From positions 1 to 33,779 of the IMG/VR virus record IMGVR_UViG_3300036804_000347: a stretch of 33,779 nucleotides of DNA. One strand, 5' to 3'. Numbering within the stretch: position 1 is the first letter of the stretch; each line of letters starts with the position of its first letter. The notes below the pieces were generated by a model that saw only the letters and a list, made by a program, of their open reading frames with translations, ran no database searches and was not told the origin of the DNA. Of this stretch, positions 4,248 to 23,176 are shown in pieces. The translations under genes were made by a program, and so were the position numbers. This DNA is from a virus.

Positions 4248-4412
4248 TTAAAGGCTGGCCGCGGACTTGCCGTTGGCGCTGATGCCCTTGCGCTCGGCAA
4301 AGTCGCTCCACATGAGCTTGTGCTGATACACGATGATGGACATCTTGCGGTAGATCCCCAGCAACACAAACAAATTGGCGGCAGTAAGGAATTCAGTAAA
4401 GTGGATTTGCAT
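4248..4412 (-). CDS. Small membrane protein (54 aa)
   Basis: A 54-aa frame begins MQIHFTEFLTAANLFVLLGI and continues YRKMSIIVYQHKLMWSDFAE. It has one hydrophobic segment (about 8-20, with a second weak one at 24-30) and a basic, hydrophilic tail. The ATG is preceded by AGGGGAATCT, a plausible ribosome-binding site. It lies between the HNH gene and the methyltransferase cargo in the lysis-side region, so it could be a second holin or accessory lysis protein. I do not recognise a family. Confidence 0.6.
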   Translation of the reverse strand: MQIHFTEFLTAANLFVLLGIYRKMSIIVYQHKLMWSDFAERKGISANGKSAASL

Positions 4413-4652
4413 AGATTCCCCTGTGAATGGATCTGGAATGAAGTCTCGGCTGTGCGCGGGGCTGGCTTGCTAACTGGTATTGCAGCTTACCTTAACCGTG
4501 TTCTTGCCCTATCCAAGTCATGGCCGACCCTGACGTGGCAAACTTTTCTGACTTTGCTTTATTTAGTCTGTGATGGATTACGCGAATCGCGTTCGCTTTT
4601 CAAGGCAACTTAGATGAGTGACATTTTCATTTCACAAATTTCAGTAACACGG
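4413..4652. other. Spacer with a short palindrome
   Basis: No gene is visible here on either strand. GCGAA-TCGCG-TTCGC (4582-4596) is a perfect 5-bp-arm dyad. A TTGAAA box lies on one side on the minus strand, but the matching -10 is poor, so a promoter is not claimed. The spacer marks the left edge of the methyltransferase cargo. Confidence 0.35.
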
Positions 4653-5333
4653 CTATTGCTTTACTGCTGCGAAGAATAGATTGGAGGATTTGCCGTGTGC
4701 ACCGACACATGAGAGGGCAAGCAACGCTGCATTCAGCGCTTTGCCCTTCCAGTTCGTCTGCCATACCGGGAAGAACCTGGGGCCTATCCGCTTCACCTCT
4801 AAATACCTGCTGATTGCTTGTCTCATGCTCACTTCATCAAAAGACTGCTGATGTCCCCAGCGGTGGAATATCGTCTTGCAATGCGGACAGAATATCTCAA
4901 GATCTTTCAAGTTTTCACGGTAAGGAGTGGTGCCAATTAAGACTCCTTTTGGTCTTAGCACTCGCTGTATTTCCTTCAGCCCATCTTCCATTACCTCTTG
5001 TGAAAGATGCTCTAAGACCTCGCTGCATATGACGACATCAGCACTATTGGAATCGAGTGGCAACGCTTCGATCATGCCGCAATGAGCTTCCACTCCCTGG
5101 CTTCGCAGCCTTTCAACTGCTCTAGGGTCAGGGTCCACAGATATCGAAACCCATCCGCGCTGTTTTGCTGTCAACTCAAGATACCCATTGCCGCACCCAA
5201 TGTTCAGCAGTACCCCGCGTTCGTGGCGCTGTGATTCAGCATAGCTCAATAACGAGCTTAGGCGTCCACCTGCCAAACTGAAAGCTTCAACGCCTTTATT
5301 TTGAAAATGTTCCCATAGGTCCTCTTGCGACAT
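4653..5333 (-). CDS. Class I SAM-dependent methyltransferase (Methyltransf_11 type)
   Basis: The 226-aa protein shows motif I NIGCGNGYLE (44-53), an acidic strand-2 end SVDPDPRAVERL, motif IV ICSEVLEHL (about 101-109) and the post-motif KGVLIGTTPY. A small Cys/His insertion FCPHCKTIFHRWGHQQSF (about 143-160) resembles that of methyltransferases in O-antigen or glycan gene clusters. It probably methylates a sugar or other small surface moiety, not DNA, as there is no DPPY or target-recognition domain. Its start codon faces that of the next methyltransferase across a perfect inverted repeat. No good Shine-Dalgarno is seen. Confidence 0.8.
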   Translation of the reverse strand: MSQEDLWEHFQNKGVEAFSLAGGRLSSLLSYAESQRHERGVLLNIGCGNGYLELTAKQRGWVSISVDPDPRAVERLRSQGVEAHCGMIEALPLDSNSADVVICSEVLEHLSQEVMEDGLKEIQRVLRPKGVLIGTTPYRENLKDLEIFCPHCKTIFHRWGHQQSFDEVSMRQAISRYLEVKRIGPRFFPVWQTNWKGKALNAALLALSCVGAHGKSSNLFFAAVKQ

Positions 5334-5337
5334 GGAA

Positions 5338-5395
5338 AAAAGTTTATCACTGAATCAATTCAAACGAGTGTTCACGCCTTCAGTGATAAACTTTT
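5338..5395. repeat. Perfect 17-bp inverted repeat between divergent genes
   Basis: AAAAGTTTATCACTGAA (5338-5354) and its exact complement TTCAGTGATAAACTTTT (5379-5395) enclose 24 bases. The repeat fills almost the whole interval between the two divergent methyltransferase starts (5333 and 5400). The inner 44 bp (5347-5390) recur, slightly changed, at 6335-6377. It may be an operator, a bidirectional transcript hairpin or a small insertion. Confidence 0.8.
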
Positions 5396-5399
5396 GCCG

Positions 5400-6341
5400 A
5401 TGAACGAGAGAATTGAAGCACTGCTAAAGGTTCGCTCTGAAATGGAGGTGTGGAGCACATTCGACCGGGCGAACCTTAATTTTTATATAACCACTTTCCG
5501 ACGCCTGCACGGAGAGGGCAAGTCCATTCTCGAAGTTGGTTCTGGCTACGGGTTTACTTCCCTGCTGTTTGCCCTGCTCGGCGCACGGGAAGTCCAGGGC
5601 ATAGAACTTATCCCGGAAGCCTTCAGGAGATCACTCGAAATAAAGGCAGCGTTCGATCCCACGTTGCCGGTTCATTTCACTGCTGGCGATGCAGCGAACG
5701 GTCTTCCTTATCCGGATTCCTCTTTCGACTGCCTGACATTGGTAGAGGTCATTTCGCATGTAGTCTGCGCTGATTTCAAAGCTTTCATGGCTGAGATGGC
5801 GAGAGTGCTTAAGCCTGGTGGCATTCTGTTCATCTCAGATGGCAACAATGCGCGATCTCCAATCCGAAGAAAATTCAACCAAGACATTTGGAATAGATTT
5901 GAAAACGGGCCGCCAACGGCCCCGGGGGAAACGGTCCACGGTCACAGCGTAATTAATCCATTCTCTGATTCCCGCAAGAAGATCGCCGCCGCTGCGGTTC
6001 CCACTCTGACGCCAGAAGAATGCGAGATGATAGCCCGTGGGACCTTCTGTTTTTCGGATGAACAAGTCGAGACCGCTGCCAGATGGTACGCAGAGAGCCA
6101 CCAAGCTCCAGCCTCATTTTATCGGCCTGGCGTCTGCCCAATCGAACCCATCCAGCATATCTACATCGAACAACTTTTTGATCCAATTGCATTGCGGGAG
6201 ATGTTGAAAGAGATCAGACTACAAACCGAACTTATCACCACGCGCCGCAGACTGCCCTTGCAAAAGTTCTGGGACGCATGGCCGCGCTTGACAATGCTTG
6301 CGGCCAATGGTTTTGTGCTCCAAGCGCGGAAGATTCACTGA
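5400..6341 (+). CDS. Class I SAM-dependent methyltransferase
   Basis: The protein is 313 aa from the ATG at 5400. It has motif I ILEVGSGYGF (43-52), a strand-2 acidic residue in VQGIELIPEA, the motif AGDAANGLPYPDSSFDCLTL (about 102-121) and the post-motif LKPGGILFISDGNN. The C-terminal half is unassigned. The start is chosen at 5400 because the in-frame ATG at 5325 would overlap the divergent neighbour and run through the inverted repeat; neither start has a clear ribosome-binding site. The gene is opposite to the late operon, which marks it as cargo (a moron). The substrate is unknown; a surface glycan or lipid is an inference from its neighbours. Confidence 0.8.
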   Translation: MNERIEALLKVRSEMEVWSTFDRANLNFYITTFRRLHGEGKSILEVGSGYGFTSLLFALLGAREVQGIELIPEAFRRSLEIKAAFDPTLPVHFTAGDAANGLPYPDSSFDCLTLVEVISHVVCADFKAFMAEMARVLKPGGILFISDGNNARSPIRRKFNQDIWNRFENGPPTAPGETVHGHSVINPFSDSRKKIAAAAVPTLTPEECEMIARGTFCFSDEQVETAARWYAESHQAPASFYRPGVCPIEPIQHIYIEQLFDPIALREMLKEIRLQTELITTRRRLPLQKFWDAWPRLTMLAANGFVLQARKIH

Positions 6342-6377
6342 ACCAATTCAATGGAGAGTTCACGCTTCAGTGATAAA
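6335..6377. repeat. Second copy of the methyltransferase-flanking repeat
   Basis: TCACTGAA...TTCAGTGATAAA here matches 5347-5390 with about 37 of 43 positions identical and the same order of words (CAATTCA, GTTCACGC or GAGTTCACGC). The left arm is shortened, so only about 8 bp of the inverted repeat remain. It overlaps the stop codon of the 5400-6341 gene. The two copies thus bracket that methyltransferase as direct repeats. Confidence 0.75.
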
Positions 6378-6561
6378 ATCCATTCCAATGATACTTTTGC
6401 TCTCATTTCGTTGATGGGCGTGGCTGATTGCCGCTTCTTTCATCATTCTGTAGGGCTCTTCTTTTCCGCTCTTGGTATCTACGCTTCAAGCGGCAACATT
6501 ACCGAAGAAGGCCCGCCGCCCGGAACACGCTATTAAATCCGGTAAGGTAAACTAACCTCGC

Positions 6562-7296
6562 ATGTTGCGAGGTCTATTTGATGTCATTACCAAGCCCGCT
6601 ATGCGCCACGACTGGCGCTGGCGGGTGGTTTGCAGACTAACCAAATGGTTACTGCCAAATTACCGCCTTCCCTGGCCTAACCTGCTTTGGTGGGAAGATG
6701 AAGAGTTTAATGCGTTCCTGACGCGGTTTGGCGAACTCCACGGGTTCAATTCTGACAGGCGCTGGATGCTTTACCAACTGGCGCTGATCGCGAATGACGT
6801 GCCGGGCAATACGGCAGAATGCGGAGCGTACCAAGGCGCAGGGTCATACCTGATATGTAAAGCCACTCAAGGCACCCCGCGCACGCATTTTATCTTTGAC
6901 TCTTTCGAGGGCATATCCAGCCCAGACAAACACGATGGAAGCTACTGGCATAAAGGCGATCTCAGTTGCTCCCTGGAAAACTTTCAGCGGCCTGCAGGGA
7001 ACATCAGCATCCACAAAGGCTGGATTCCAGATCGCTTTGAGGATGTAGCAGACCGTCGTTTTTCATTTGTACATATCGACGTTGATTTGCATCAGCCCAC
7101 GGCCGACAGCATCGAGTTCTTCTACCCGCGCATGAATCCTGGCGGTATGATTGTTTTCGATGACTACGGTTTCAGCAGTTGCCCCGGCGCAAAAAAAGCA
7201 GTGGACGATTTTCTTAGCGATAAGGCTGAAAAGATCACCATGCTGTCATGTGGAAGCGGGTTGCTAATCAAGCCATCGATTTCCCAATACAAATAA
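6562..7296 (+). CDS. TylF/MycF-family O-methyltransferase
   Basis: This 244-aa protein fits the macrocin O-methyltransferase (TylF, PF05711) family. The SAM-binding motif is AECGAYQGAGSYL (85-97). HFIFDSFEGIS (109-119) is a family hallmark, and the metal-binding acidic residues lie in FVHIDVDLHQPT (169-180) and VFDDYG (198-203). Such enzymes are Mg-dependent and methylate sugar hydroxyls. It lies 220 bp after the previous methyltransferase on the same strand. A 61-codon frame in the gap has no protein-like content. With its neighbours it forms a glycan-modification cargo, which could alter host surface receptors in the lysogen; that role is an inference. Confidence 0.85.
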   Translation: MLRGLFDVITKPAMRHDWRWRVVCRLTKWLLPNYRLPWPNLLWWEDEEFNAFLTRFGELHGFNSDRRWMLYQLALIANDVPGNTAECGAYQGAGSYLICKATQGTPRTHFIFDSFEGISSPDKHDGSYWHKGDLSCSLENFQRPAGNISIHKGWIPDRFEDVADRRFSFVHIDVDLHQPTADSIEFFYPRMNPGGMIVFDDYGFSSCPGAKKAVDDFLSDKAEKITMLSCGSGLLIKPSISQYK

Positions 7297-7375
7297 CGTT
7301 CACTACATACGACAAAGTTGCGACCGGAGTGCCGGAAAAATCAAAGGTAACAACACAAAATCCAGTGATAGTAGA

Positions 7376-7630
7376 ATGAGTGTTGCAATGGAAAACACAT
7401 TTAATCATTGGGAAGAACACGGGGGCCGCTTTATAGCCCTCGTGTTCAATTTCCCCAATCCTCAAGGATATTCTTTGCTAATCGCAGACTTTAACAGGAA
7501 GTCAGAAAATGGAGATATTGTTCTTCGGCGAATTGGCGAATCACTTGAATTTAGGTGCGATGTCTGCCAGGAAAAAATTGTGGTAGCCAATTCCGATGAC
7601 ATCACTACCACCGCTAAAGATCATGCGTAA
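7376..7630 (+). CDS. Small hypothetical protein with a CxxC pair
   Basis: The 84-aa product has no recognised family. It shows one CxxC (FRCDVCQEKIVV, about residues 59-70) and no membrane segment. A second in-frame ATG at 7388 is possible. It ends four bases from the convergent end of the tail-fibre-like gene, closing the plus-strand cargo block of two methyltransferases and this gene. Codon use looks ordinary. Confidence 0.5.
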   Translation: MSVAMENTFNHWEEHGGRFIALVFNFPNPQGYSLLIADFNRKSENGDIVLRRIGESLEFRCDVCQEKIVVANSDDITTTAKDHA

Positions 7631-7633
7631 GCA

Positions 7634-9172
7634 TTACTTGCCTACACAGATAACCTGCGCACCATAAGCGACACCCGCAGTAGGCGTAAAATTCGCAAAA
7701 ACCACCAACTGCGTTGCGCTTATTGAACTGACAATCCAAATCGGGTTTAGTCCGCCGATTGGCCCTGGTGATGCGACGCAGACGGGCGGGTTCGTCCATG
7801 TGCCATCCGCAAAAGTGAGCGTGATTGTCGGATTCACTGCTTGACCGGTACCATTGCTGGTCATCGCGAAAGTGAAAGCCGAATCAGTGCCAGCAATCGA
7901 ACCGATGGATGCAGTCGTTCCCCATCCTGCTGAAAATACAAAGTTGCCCGAAGCCAGCGCCGTTCCCTGATTGGCTCGAAGTCGGTTGAATGGCGTAGTG
8001 CCCGCCAGCGTCTTGTTGCTCATGGTCTGCGTGAGCGTGTCGCCCAACACGTTATAGGTTCCGGCTTTGACGGCGACATTTCCAGAGGCAACTGCGTCTG
8101 TGCCTATAGTCGTAAACCCAGAGGTATTGCCAAACATCAAGAGAGAGCCACCCTGGCCGATATAGAGGCTGCCCCCAGAATCAATGATGCGAGTTTGCTT
8201 TCCCGAACTGTTTGTGGCCACAATTCCACCTGCCGTGTCGTTTGTGATGGTGGCCGGCAAAGTTCCGGTAGCGGTCTTGAAAGTAATACCGGATGAGCTC
8301 AATGAAGCGAGTTCAGCTCCAGCCAGGAATCCGGCACTTACAGCTCGCACTGACAGAGCCCCAACCCTGAACGCAGCAGATGAACCATCAGCAGGAACAA
8401 TCGCTGCACGTTCGGTTGATGCCCCCAAGGCTCCTATAGCTATGCTCATTCCGCCTGTAGTGGTTGATGTTCCACCTACGGTAAGCGCAGCCCCAGTGGC
8501 CGTAGAAACAGGATTCACTATCACGTTGCTGGTATTCGTAATTCCGGCCAGCGTCAAGCCGGAAGCCAGATCAGCCGAGCCCACCGTGTTGCAAGTGGGA
8601 GGCGCTGCTGTGTTCAAAGCCCTGACAAACTGGTTTGTACACGCCCCCGCGCCCGGAATGCTGCCCGGAATATTCGATCCCGTGACTGTCCCTGTAAATG
8701 CGCCGTTCCCTGTGACGCTCAGGTTTCCGCTGACGCTGTTTCCCGTCAATGGCGCGAGCGATGCCCCGCTGATTACCGGCGTGTAATTATCAAAATTGAA
8801 GGTCGCTCCGGCAAAGGTCACACCCTGGTACCGCAACACTTCCTGCCCGGTGCTGGAATCCACTACGCGCACCCGGTAATAAATCCCCGTGGGATTCGTG
8901 GTTGCCGGGTTCGGAACGGTGAATGAAGTCACCACGCCTGCGGTCACAGCGGAGCAGTATTGCCGCTTCAAAGCCTGCCCGCCGCCGCCGATCCCGAAGG
9001 CGATAGGATTGTCGCTTTGGTCTGTACCCTGAAAGCAAAGTTGTCCGATGGCAAGCTTGGCTCCGTTCAAGTCCGTTATGTTTGACCCTGAAACCGTGGT
9101 GAGGTTTTGAGCAAAGCCTTGACCACAGAGGGCGCAGAGGAACACAGAGAGAAGCAGAATCTTCTTCAACAT
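7634..9172 (-). CDS. Secreted tail-fibre-like protein
   Basis: The 512-aa protein begins with a clear Sec signal peptide (MLKKILLLSVFLCALCGQGFAQ), then Ser/Thr/Gly-rich beta-repeat sequence typical of fibres. The middle region ACTNQFVRALNTAAPPTCNT and SDLASGLTLAGI-like text (about 170-210) is a motif seen in tail-fibre and surface proteins. The C-terminal part (about 400-512, FNRLRANQGTALASGNFVFS onward) resembles a receptor-binding or trimerising knob. GGAG before the ATG supports this start. A signal peptide on a virion fibre is unusual because fibres assemble in the cytoplasm. It may instead be a surface-exported protein borrowed from the host. It sits directly downstream of the tail-tip gene. 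Confidence 0.7.
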   Translation of the reverse strand: MLKKILLLSVFLCALCGQGFAQNLTTVSGSNITDLNGAKLAIGQLCFQGTDQSDNPIAFGIGGGGQALKRQYCSAVTAGVVTSFTVPNPATTNPTGIYYRVRVVDSSTGQEVLRYQGVTFAGATFNFDNYTPVISGASLAPLTGNSVSGNLSVTGNGAFTGTVTGSNIPGSIPGAGACTNQFVRALNTAAPPTCNTVGSADLASGLTLAGITNTSNVIVNPVSTATGAALTVGGTSTTTGGMSIAIGALGASTERAAIVPADGSSAAFRVGALSVRAVSAGFLAGAELASLSSSGITFKTATGTLPATITNDTAGGIVATNSSGKQTRIIDSGGSLYIGQGGSLLMFGNTSGFTTIGTDAVASGNVAVKAGTYNVLGDTLTQTMSNKTLAGTTPFNRLRANQGTALASGNFVFSAGWGTTASIGSIAGTDSAFTFAMTSNGTGQAVNPTITLTFADGTWTNPPVCVASPGPIGGLNPIWIVSSISATQLVVFANFTPTAGVAYGAQVICVGK

Positions 9173-12337: not shown

Positions 12338-12810
12338 GCATTTACCTCAAAGAATTTCTTTTCTCTGCCAATTAATTCGCCGTCACGTTCCGCATCACTC
12401 AGCATGACTCCGTGCGGGATGTAGGAGTGAATAATCAGTGGCCAGTCAATCACGATGGCTCCATGGCTGAAGGCGCGGCCAAACTTGAAGATCACGAAAT
12501 CGGCCGGTTGCGGAATCGGCGTCCATGTCGCAGTTCCATCATGGTTCTTCCATGCTTCGTGCGGTCTCAGCTCGCGCATGACCGGCGCAAGCGCTTCCAG
12601 ATATTTCTCTTCTGAACGGTGCAGATGCCATTGCACGGAATATTCAGGAGGTTGAAAGTCCAGCGGCACTACTCCACATTCCTGATAAACCGCAAGAGGA
12701 AACATGGCGCAATCCGTTCCCACCCCTTTCACACTGGCCTGATGGTGATAGGGAGTGCGAAGCCATTCTTTGGCCTTGCGGACAATTTCAGCCCGCTTTT
12801 CCGGCGTCAT
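12328..12810 (-). CDS. NlpC/P60-type phage cell-wall peptidase
   Basis: The 160-aa protein has the papain-like triad of phage NlpC/P60 peptidases: Cys34 in GTDCAMF, His116 in FSHGAIVID and a third polar residue, probably His128 in LIIHSYIPHG. Such proteins ride in the tail tip and cleave peptidoglycan peptides to help DNA entry. The length is close to the family's usual 140-150 aa. Its start overlaps the previous stop (ATGA at 12807-12810), indicating translational coupling, and its end overlaps the tip gene. Confidence 0.88.
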   Translation of the reverse strand: MTPEKRAEIVRKAKEWLRTPYHHQASVKGVGTDCAMFPLAVYQECGVVPLDFQPPEYSVQWHLHRSEEKYLEALAPVMRELRPHEAWKNHDGTATWTPIPQPADFVIFKFGRAFSHGAIVIDWPLIIHSYIPHGVMLSDAERDGELIGREKKFFEVNAWV

Positions 12811-13028
12811 TGCGCAAGCTCCGCAAGCTGGGTCTGAGTGATACGAAGCCGCTTGAGCACCCGCGTTTCATAGATCACCTGTCCGTTGTGCGGTTCGTGG
12901 AAAGTAACGATTGAAGGTTCACGCTGGCCGCTCATAAAAGTTCGGGTCGAACCCTTCCGGTTGATGATCCGATAACCAAGTTTCTGCGTAACTCGGAGCA
13001 CATCGCTCCAGTCAATCATGCGTGACAT
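12807..13028 (-). CDS. HicA-fold small protein lacking the catalytic histidine
   Basis: The 73-aa product fits the HicA/YcfA dsRBD-like fold: DVLRVTQKLGYRIINRKGST (9-28), then a beta-hairpin ending IVTFHEPH and the closing helix TRVLKRLRITQTQLAEL. In HicA toxins the catalytic His follows KGS (KGSH); here it is Thr28. There is no HicB antitoxin next to it. The gene is embedded and coupled in the tail operon, so a structural or RNA-binding role in tail assembly is more likely than a toxin. AAGGAC lies nine bases before the ATG. The fold assignment is by eye. Confidence 0.6.
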   Translation of the reverse strand: MSRMIDWSDVLRVTQKLGYRIINRKGSTRTFMSGQREPSIVTFHEPHNGQVIYETRVLKRLRITQTQLAELAQ

Positions 13029-21682: not shown

Positions 21683-23176
21683 TTATCCGTTGGCTACATT
21701 TGCGATCACGCCGAGCGAGAACGGTGCGCGGCAGACGAGGACTTCGTCGGCATACACACCATAGACATATTGGCGAGAAACCACCGGCCACTCAATCTGG
21801 TAATAATCACGGCGGCAGCGGACAAAAGAAACGTTGTCCACGCCGGAGAGCGGGTAAGGAATCTCCGAGCTGTTAAAGAAAATGGTGCCCGGAGCAAGAT
21901 TGGGATGGATGCGGATGTCCAGAAACTGCTGGGTGAATTTGTTCCAGTACTTGGCAATGCTTGCGCCACCCAACAGAGCGGGCTTGTCATCGTCCGATCC
22001 GGTACCACCCGGCAAGGTGAAGCGGAAGAGCGGAACGCCGCCGGAGGCGACGATCTTTTTGTTGATATTGCGCGCTTCCTGCGAGTTCACCCAGATTTCC
22101 GTGGGGCTGAGGCGCTTATTGTCCCAGAACCATTGGAGCGCAATGTCGATTTCAACGATGCCGTTGGCCTGATCAGCGGTAAGAACGTTACCGTCGAGCG
22201 AGGCGAAATAGCCGGCATTGGACTTCAATGCCTGAGTGAGAAAGCCATCGAACACCAGCGTGTTGGCGGAGCCGTCTGTGTTTGAGTTGGCGGCATTGGC
22301 CAATTGAGTTCCGGCAACAGGAGCACTGATAGTGGCTTTATTGACGGTGGTAATGGTGTTCAACGTAGCAGTAGCTGCACTGGTGCCGATGTACCATGCG
22401 TATCCGGCTGCGCCTTTTACGGCGGGAACGGTAGCCACAACCGTCTGTTGACCGGCGGTGGTGACCGCAGCGGAAGAAGCAGCGCTGATGGTGCTGGCGC
22501 CAGCTCCGTATTGAGTGGATGTGCCGTCAATGTTGACGCGGGTAACCTGGCCGTAAGGCACGCCGCTGGCGGAGACCGTGGAATTCGCCAAAGCACGGGC
22601 GGTAAGCGCAGTAACAAAGACCAAGAGGCTGAGTCCGGAGCCCAGTGTGCCACCGTTGGCAAGAGCAACAGTTGGAGCCGTTGGCGTACCGAGCGGCATG
22701 GATGCATTGCCATTGAGCAGCACGTTTTCTTCACCGATCATGACTGCGCGCAGCAATGACTGGACCAGTGTGGCTTTGTTATCGAATTCCTTGCCGCCGG
22801 ACCAAACAGCTTCCCAGTCGATGGAAGCTTCGAGTCCAAGACCTGCATAAGATGCGACATAATCCTGCTCAGTGACGCTCATTTCCGCCGAGCGCCGGCC
22901 CGGAGCAACGCCAAGCTCAAAGCCCTGAGTATTGACGCCCGTAATGGCTTTCCAGCGGGTGGCCAGATCGCCACGGTCGCTGAGTTGACGCGGCAAGCGG
23001 TTGCGCAACGGAGTGATGACCGGATAAAGCTGAAGCGCTGGGCCGCGAAGATCAAATGCGTTTAAGTTGCCAGCCACGCCGCTGATGAGCGACTGGCTGA
23101 TGGTGGTTTTATTCAACGGAGAGAGCTCCGCCTTGTTGAGCAGATCAAATGTCTGCTGACTGAGATCGCCAAACAT
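21683..23176 (-). CDS. Major capsid protein (HK97-fold) with inserted domain
   Basis: The 497-aa protein is long for a HK97-type capsid (usually 300-400). Conserved segments are the N-terminal GDLATRWKAITGVN-like region, the P-domain WEAVWSGGKEFDNKATLVQS, NGIVEIDIALQWFWDNKRLS with the ILVNSQEARN-like WVNSQEARNINKKI, and the C-terminal APGTIFFNSSEIPYPLSGVD. Residues about 190-300 (ARALANSTVS to VAGTQL) are Ala/Ser/Thr-rich and look like an Ig or fibronectin-type surface insert. GGAACCAGAAT precedes the ATG. There is no N-terminal scaffold domain; this function is probably in the protease gene upstream. Confidence 0.85.
   Translation of the reverse strand: MFGDLSQQTFDLLNKAELSPLNKTTISQSLISGVAGNLNAFDLRGPALQLYPVITPLRNRLPRQLSDRGDLATRWKAITGVNTQGFELGVAPGRRSAEMSVTEQDYVASYAGLGLEASIDWEAVWSGGKEFDNKATLVQSLLRAVMIGEENVLLNGNASMPLGTPTAPTVALANGGTLGSGLSLLVFVTALTARALANSTVSASGVPYGQVTRVNIDGTSTQYGAGASTISAASSAAVTTAGQQTVVATVPAVKGAAGYAWYIGTSAATATLNTITTVNKATISAPVAGTQLANAANSNTDGSANTLVFDGFLTQALKSNAGYFASLDGNVLTADQANGIVEIDIALQWFWDNKRLSPTEIWVNSQEARNINKKIVASGGVPLFRFTLPGGTGSDDDKPALLGGASIAKYWNKFTQQFLDIRIHPNLAPGTIFFNSSEIPYPLSGVDNVSFVRCRRDYYQIEWPVVSRQYVYGVYADEVLVCRAPFSLGVIANVANG

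Follow-up and report, generated by a model that had tools for sequence, protein, structure and literature searches.

The accessory loci of temperate phages are often highly expressed in lysogens (PMC7067206). The locus described here resembles such phage morons, or lysogenic-conversion cargo, in that foreign genes lie between late phage genes, are missing in some relatives, and have a promoter-like start sequence of their own. It differs in that two back-to-back genes share a predicted palindromic promoter, of which a further copy stands before the next gene, and in that methyltransferases fill the slot repeatedly. A second comparison is with leaderless bacterial genes, in which TANNNT lies about 12 bp upstream of the start codon (PMC3160421). 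At two of the genes considered here, MT1 and MT2, the first T of a TAAACT stands 13 nt upstream of the ATG, and neither has a Shine-Dalgarno sequence. In 20 sampled contigs of the likely host class, however, such starts are no general feature, near-leaderless starts being without excess and a general leaderless signal not being found. Integron cassettes with attC offer a third comparison, since there too an imperfect inverted repeat stands at the stop codon of a gene. Here, in contrast, RYYYAAC and GTTRRRY core sites are lacking (none in 5300-5430 or 6300-6410), MT1 is divergent, and no further array units follow.

A cargo slot filled by methyltransferases

The window, by which we mean the whole 33.8-kb stretch of a virus record that was analysed, includes genes for an integrase, an endolysin, an HNH endonuclease and a tail tip, and a tail-fibre-like gene that is named by its position and has no family match. 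It is a fragment from the genome of a temperate, tailed phage. Relatives of its tail-tip protein are encoded in 24 viral contigs, referred to below by L numbers where they must be told apart. The host is probably a member of the Acidobacteriaceae, a lead that comes from one record, a relative in an Acidobacteriaceae MAG. The features of the slot are as follows.

4413 to 7633, no strand: variable cargo slot, between a small conserved ORF (4248-4412, minus strand) and the tail-fibre-like gene (7634-9172, minus strand)
4653 to 5333, minus strand: MT1, SAM-dependent methyltransferase, 226 aa (Pfam Methyltransf_11, E 5e-19)
5400 to 6341, plus strand: MT2, SAM-dependent methyltransferase, 313 aa from the ATG at 5400 (Pfam Methyltransf_11, E 2e-17)
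6562 to 7296, plus strand: MT3, TylF/macrocin O-methyltransferase-like, 244 aa (relative in L027, 62-64% identity)

Among relatives that hold both flanks, the slot measures 87 bp in L029, where it is empty, and 0.6 to 2.8 kb in most others; it reaches 3.2 kb in the window and also in L050, a more distant relative. As with morons, then, extra genes stand between conserved phage genes and are absent or replaced in relatives. The slot genes of relatives are mostly SAM-methyltransferases of several families, differing from one relative to another, and L036 has a GDSL-type hydrolase and a 155-aa protein along with its methyltransferase cargo. An empty slot in L029 and a gene content that differs among the other relatives are what would be expected of independently transcribed cargo. 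Refilling with different SAM-methyltransferases is seen in L018, L019, L023, L025, L026, L027, L030, L036 and L049.

L027 is the only viral contig in which a relative of MT3 was found, and neither MT1 nor MT2 was found in it. No viral contig yielded a relative of MT1. For MT2, the viral contigs, phages and relatives gave no orthologue, and Acidobacteriota and plasmids gave domain-level matches only. This points to a family of phages, with soil Acidobacteriaceae as their probable hosts, in which different methyltransferases fill the slot repeatedly. The slot genes could alter host surface sugars, and lysogenic conversion in a poorly cultured phylum could then be studied there. Though the layout is unusual, the cargo itself is most likely of the ordinary phage kind and not a mobile element.

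Two small minus-strand ORFs of the window may be mentioned here. The 54-aa ORF at 4248-4412, at the edge of the slot, is 81-92% identical in nearly all the close relatives that hold it and has no PHROGs match. A 73-aa ORF at 12807-13028, between tail genes, has a weak HicA-toxin match that falls below the Pfam cut-off.

The palindrome between two divergent starts

What fills the short interval between MT1 and MT2? The sequence-only reading had described the spacer between the two divergent methyltransferases as almost wholly a perfect 17-bp inverted repeat with a 24-base loop, and this description is correct. The interval between the start codons is 66 bp (5334-5399), and nearly all of it is taken up by the arms AAAAGTTTATCACTGAA (5338-5354) and TTCAGTGATAAACTTTT (5379-5395) and the loop between them. 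The repeat, its later copy and their candidate promoter elements are located as follows.

5338 to 5395, no strand: unit copy 1, perfect 17-bp inverted repeat with two predicted divergent promoter cores head to head
5341 to 5346, minus strand: -10-like hexamer TAAACT, with TG-A in front of it and 7 nt between it and the MT1 ATG
5387 to 5392, plus strand: -10-like hexamer TAAACT, with TG-A in front of it (extended -10) and 7 nt between it and the MT2 ATG
6335 to 6377, plus strand: direct copy of the unit, with an intact right arm and a degenerate left arm that overlaps the MT2 stop
6374 to 6379, plus strand: -10-like hexamer TAAAAT of the downstream copy, likewise with TG-A in front of it

With loops of up to 60 allowed, the arms of copy 1 are the longest perfect inverted repeat of the window; the next perfect arms are of 11 bp or less, and the longest in 60 dinucleotide shuffles was 13 bp. 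If mismatches are allowed, the arms extend to 24 nt at 88% (5331-5354/5379-5402). Folded as single-stranded DNA, copy 1 has a z of -5.5.

The start codons of MT1 (CAT 5331-5333) and MT2 (ATG 5400-5402) are exactly symmetrical with respect to the midpoint of the repeat (5331+5402 = 5338+5395 = 10733), each arm being read as TTCAGTGATAAACT, 7 bases, ATG. The likeness of the arms stops at the start codons, and beyond them the two sides differ. A start further upstream is impossible for MT1, because an in-frame stop lies inside the unit. The sequence TGATAAACT at the arm ends reads as an extended -10 promoter core. The distance of 7 nt from TANNNT to each start codon lies within the 6-8 nt required of leaderless-gene promoters; Shine-Dalgarno sequences, missing at MT1 and MT2, are a common feature of the relatives and of host-class contigs.

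We think it rather probable that the repeat serves as a divergent promoter of palindromic form, and perhaps also as an operator, for the methyltransferase cargo genes of a temperate phage. From the extended -10 in each arm, RNA polymerase would begin transcription at the ATG or very close to it, leftward for MT1 and rightward for MT2, so that both messages would be nearly leaderless; expression in the lysogen may be supposed. So viewed, the striking repeat would be accounted for by the geometry of the genes, and not by a new element. Copy 1 has no -35 box, and a consensus promoter scan calls nothing there; in the downstream copy the scan gives one 9/12 match, total matches being no more than in shuffles. 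One would also think that perfect symmetry over 17 bp is more than is needed, and indeed a promoter alone does not require it, which counts against our proposal.

Is the proposed promoter core found at cargo genes of the relatives? In 427 kb of their DNA, exact TGATAAACT occurs at two sites, both at cargo gene starts (L036 20579; L049 6236). With one mismatch allowed, 4 of the 18 start regions of cargo genes contain it. The mean for permuted 9-mers is 0.26, and 2 of 400 permutations reach 4; two of the four matches sit in homologous genes. Taking the slot as a whole, 8 of 49 one-mismatch sites fall within it where 5.2% would be expected (p = 0.003), a modest excess. As the enrichment was tested after the motif had been seen, these figures are support and not proof. 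L036 also matches the arm over 18 nt, with 2 mismatches, before the gene for its 155-aa cargo protein. At other cargo genes, TANNNT lies 6-8 nt before the start in L023, L025, L026, L027 and L049, and several others are without it.

A separate observation on L036 concerns positions 22012-22028, where TATCAGTGATAGACTTTTG stands ahead of a cargo gene and includes the palindrome TATCAGTGATA (up to the central base). We take this palindrome to resemble a TetR-type operator core, tetO-like; no regulator for it was traced in L036.

The downstream copy and competing explanations

The sequence-only reading had also noticed that the repeat recurs as a direct copy at the MT2 stop codon, and this too was borne out: the 43 bp at 6335-6377 match copy 1 at 89% (E = 1e-10, one 1-nt gap), and the TGA stop of MT2 (6339-6341) falls inside the left end. 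The strong palindrome is that of copy 1 only, the hairpin of the downstream copy being weak (8-bp outer stem, z = -1.4). The rightward core TGATAAAAT is present in the downstream copy and the leftward core is absent, which fits a promoter because there is no leftward gene there to serve. The downstream unit stands before the MT3 transcription unit. It counts against a promoter here that the ATG following this copy opens just 8 codons, and that the start of MT3 is about 170 nt beyond, with its own TAAACT 8 nt upstream. Since the 43-bp likeness covers the loop as well as the arms, duplication of the unit would be the simplest origin of this copy. Such a duplication would have come later, plausibly as MT2 or the gene next to it entered the slot. 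Coding readings of the repeat (peptides SLNQF...FT in another frame; a 61-aa ORF at 6351-6536) gave no convincing homologue in relatives.

Might the palindrome instead be an operator, binding a repressor, in dimeric or tetrameric form, that governs MT1 and MT2 jointly, with the downstream copy as a weaker site? The perfection of the 17-bp symmetry would be explained, the arm centres are 41 bp apart, or about four helical turns, the arms cover the -10 cores, and the loop is kept between both copies. We nevertheless consider this unlikely as the whole explanation: none of the slot genes was recognised as coding for a regulator, the downstream copy has a degraded left arm, and the likeness spans the whole 43 bp and not the arms alone, as plain duplication would give. 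An operator is compatible with a divergent promoter as a possible added layer. Because both -10 elements lie inside the arms, one arm-binding protein could conceivably switch MT1 and MT2 together. The earlier suggestion of an operator repeated before each plus-strand gene comes close to the divergent promoter that we favour, except that the unit would also serve MT1, on the minus strand.

It was likewise suggested that the repeats mark a cassette boundary, MT2 being mobile or recombinable between 43-bp direct repeats in an integron-like manner or through a site of homologous or site-specific exchange. MT2 is indeed flanked exactly by direct repeats, slot content differs between relatives, and MT2 has no close relative within the phage family. 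We regard a cassette as doubtful, for the unit is absent from the scanned viral contigs, from the slot edges of relatives, and from 299 genomes of the class to which the host probably belongs, which gave one unrelated palindrome only, and attC core sites are absent. Moreover, the stretch that is extra to L027, the nearest comparable relative, is not bounded by the repeats but runs well beyond them; the repeats bracket MT2 only. A recombination footprint finds no support for the same reasons, and neither does a small mobile element, no unit copies beyond the window's own having been found in the same or related genomes. Twelve viral palindromes with the same arms were rejected, as their loop and context differ. 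A check for a relative with the segment missing and one repeat left found none, nor was any relative holding MT2 found. The cassette proposal had been tied to finding the repeat elsewhere or the segment varying between relatives; the repeat was not found elsewhere and no variation of this very segment was seen, so the proposal is not upheld, though the slot as a whole varies strongly. Likewise doubtful is a palindromic promoter that doubles as a recombination joint, such that the slot gains and loses cargo genes through exchange between promoter units, each incomer bringing a promoter or finding one ready.

An RNA hairpin acting as terminator or attenuator between or after the genes is very improbable: the copy 1 stem is strong as RNA (-22.7 kcal/mol) and the downstream copy is located at the MT2 stop, but the loop is of 24 nt and the stem A+T-rich, copy 1 lies between divergent starts where no message ends, the weak downstream hairpin has no T run, a terminator scan does not call the repeat, and Rfam gives no match to known RNA families.

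With regard to a terminator of the cargo's own, as morons have, terminator-like sites number 8, against 4.2 (sd 2.2) in shuffles. Downstream of MT3, at 7413-7445 and inside a doubtful 84-aa ORF, lies an imperfect inverted repeat, GAACACGGGGGC/GCCCTCGTGTTC, which is perhaps a terminator.
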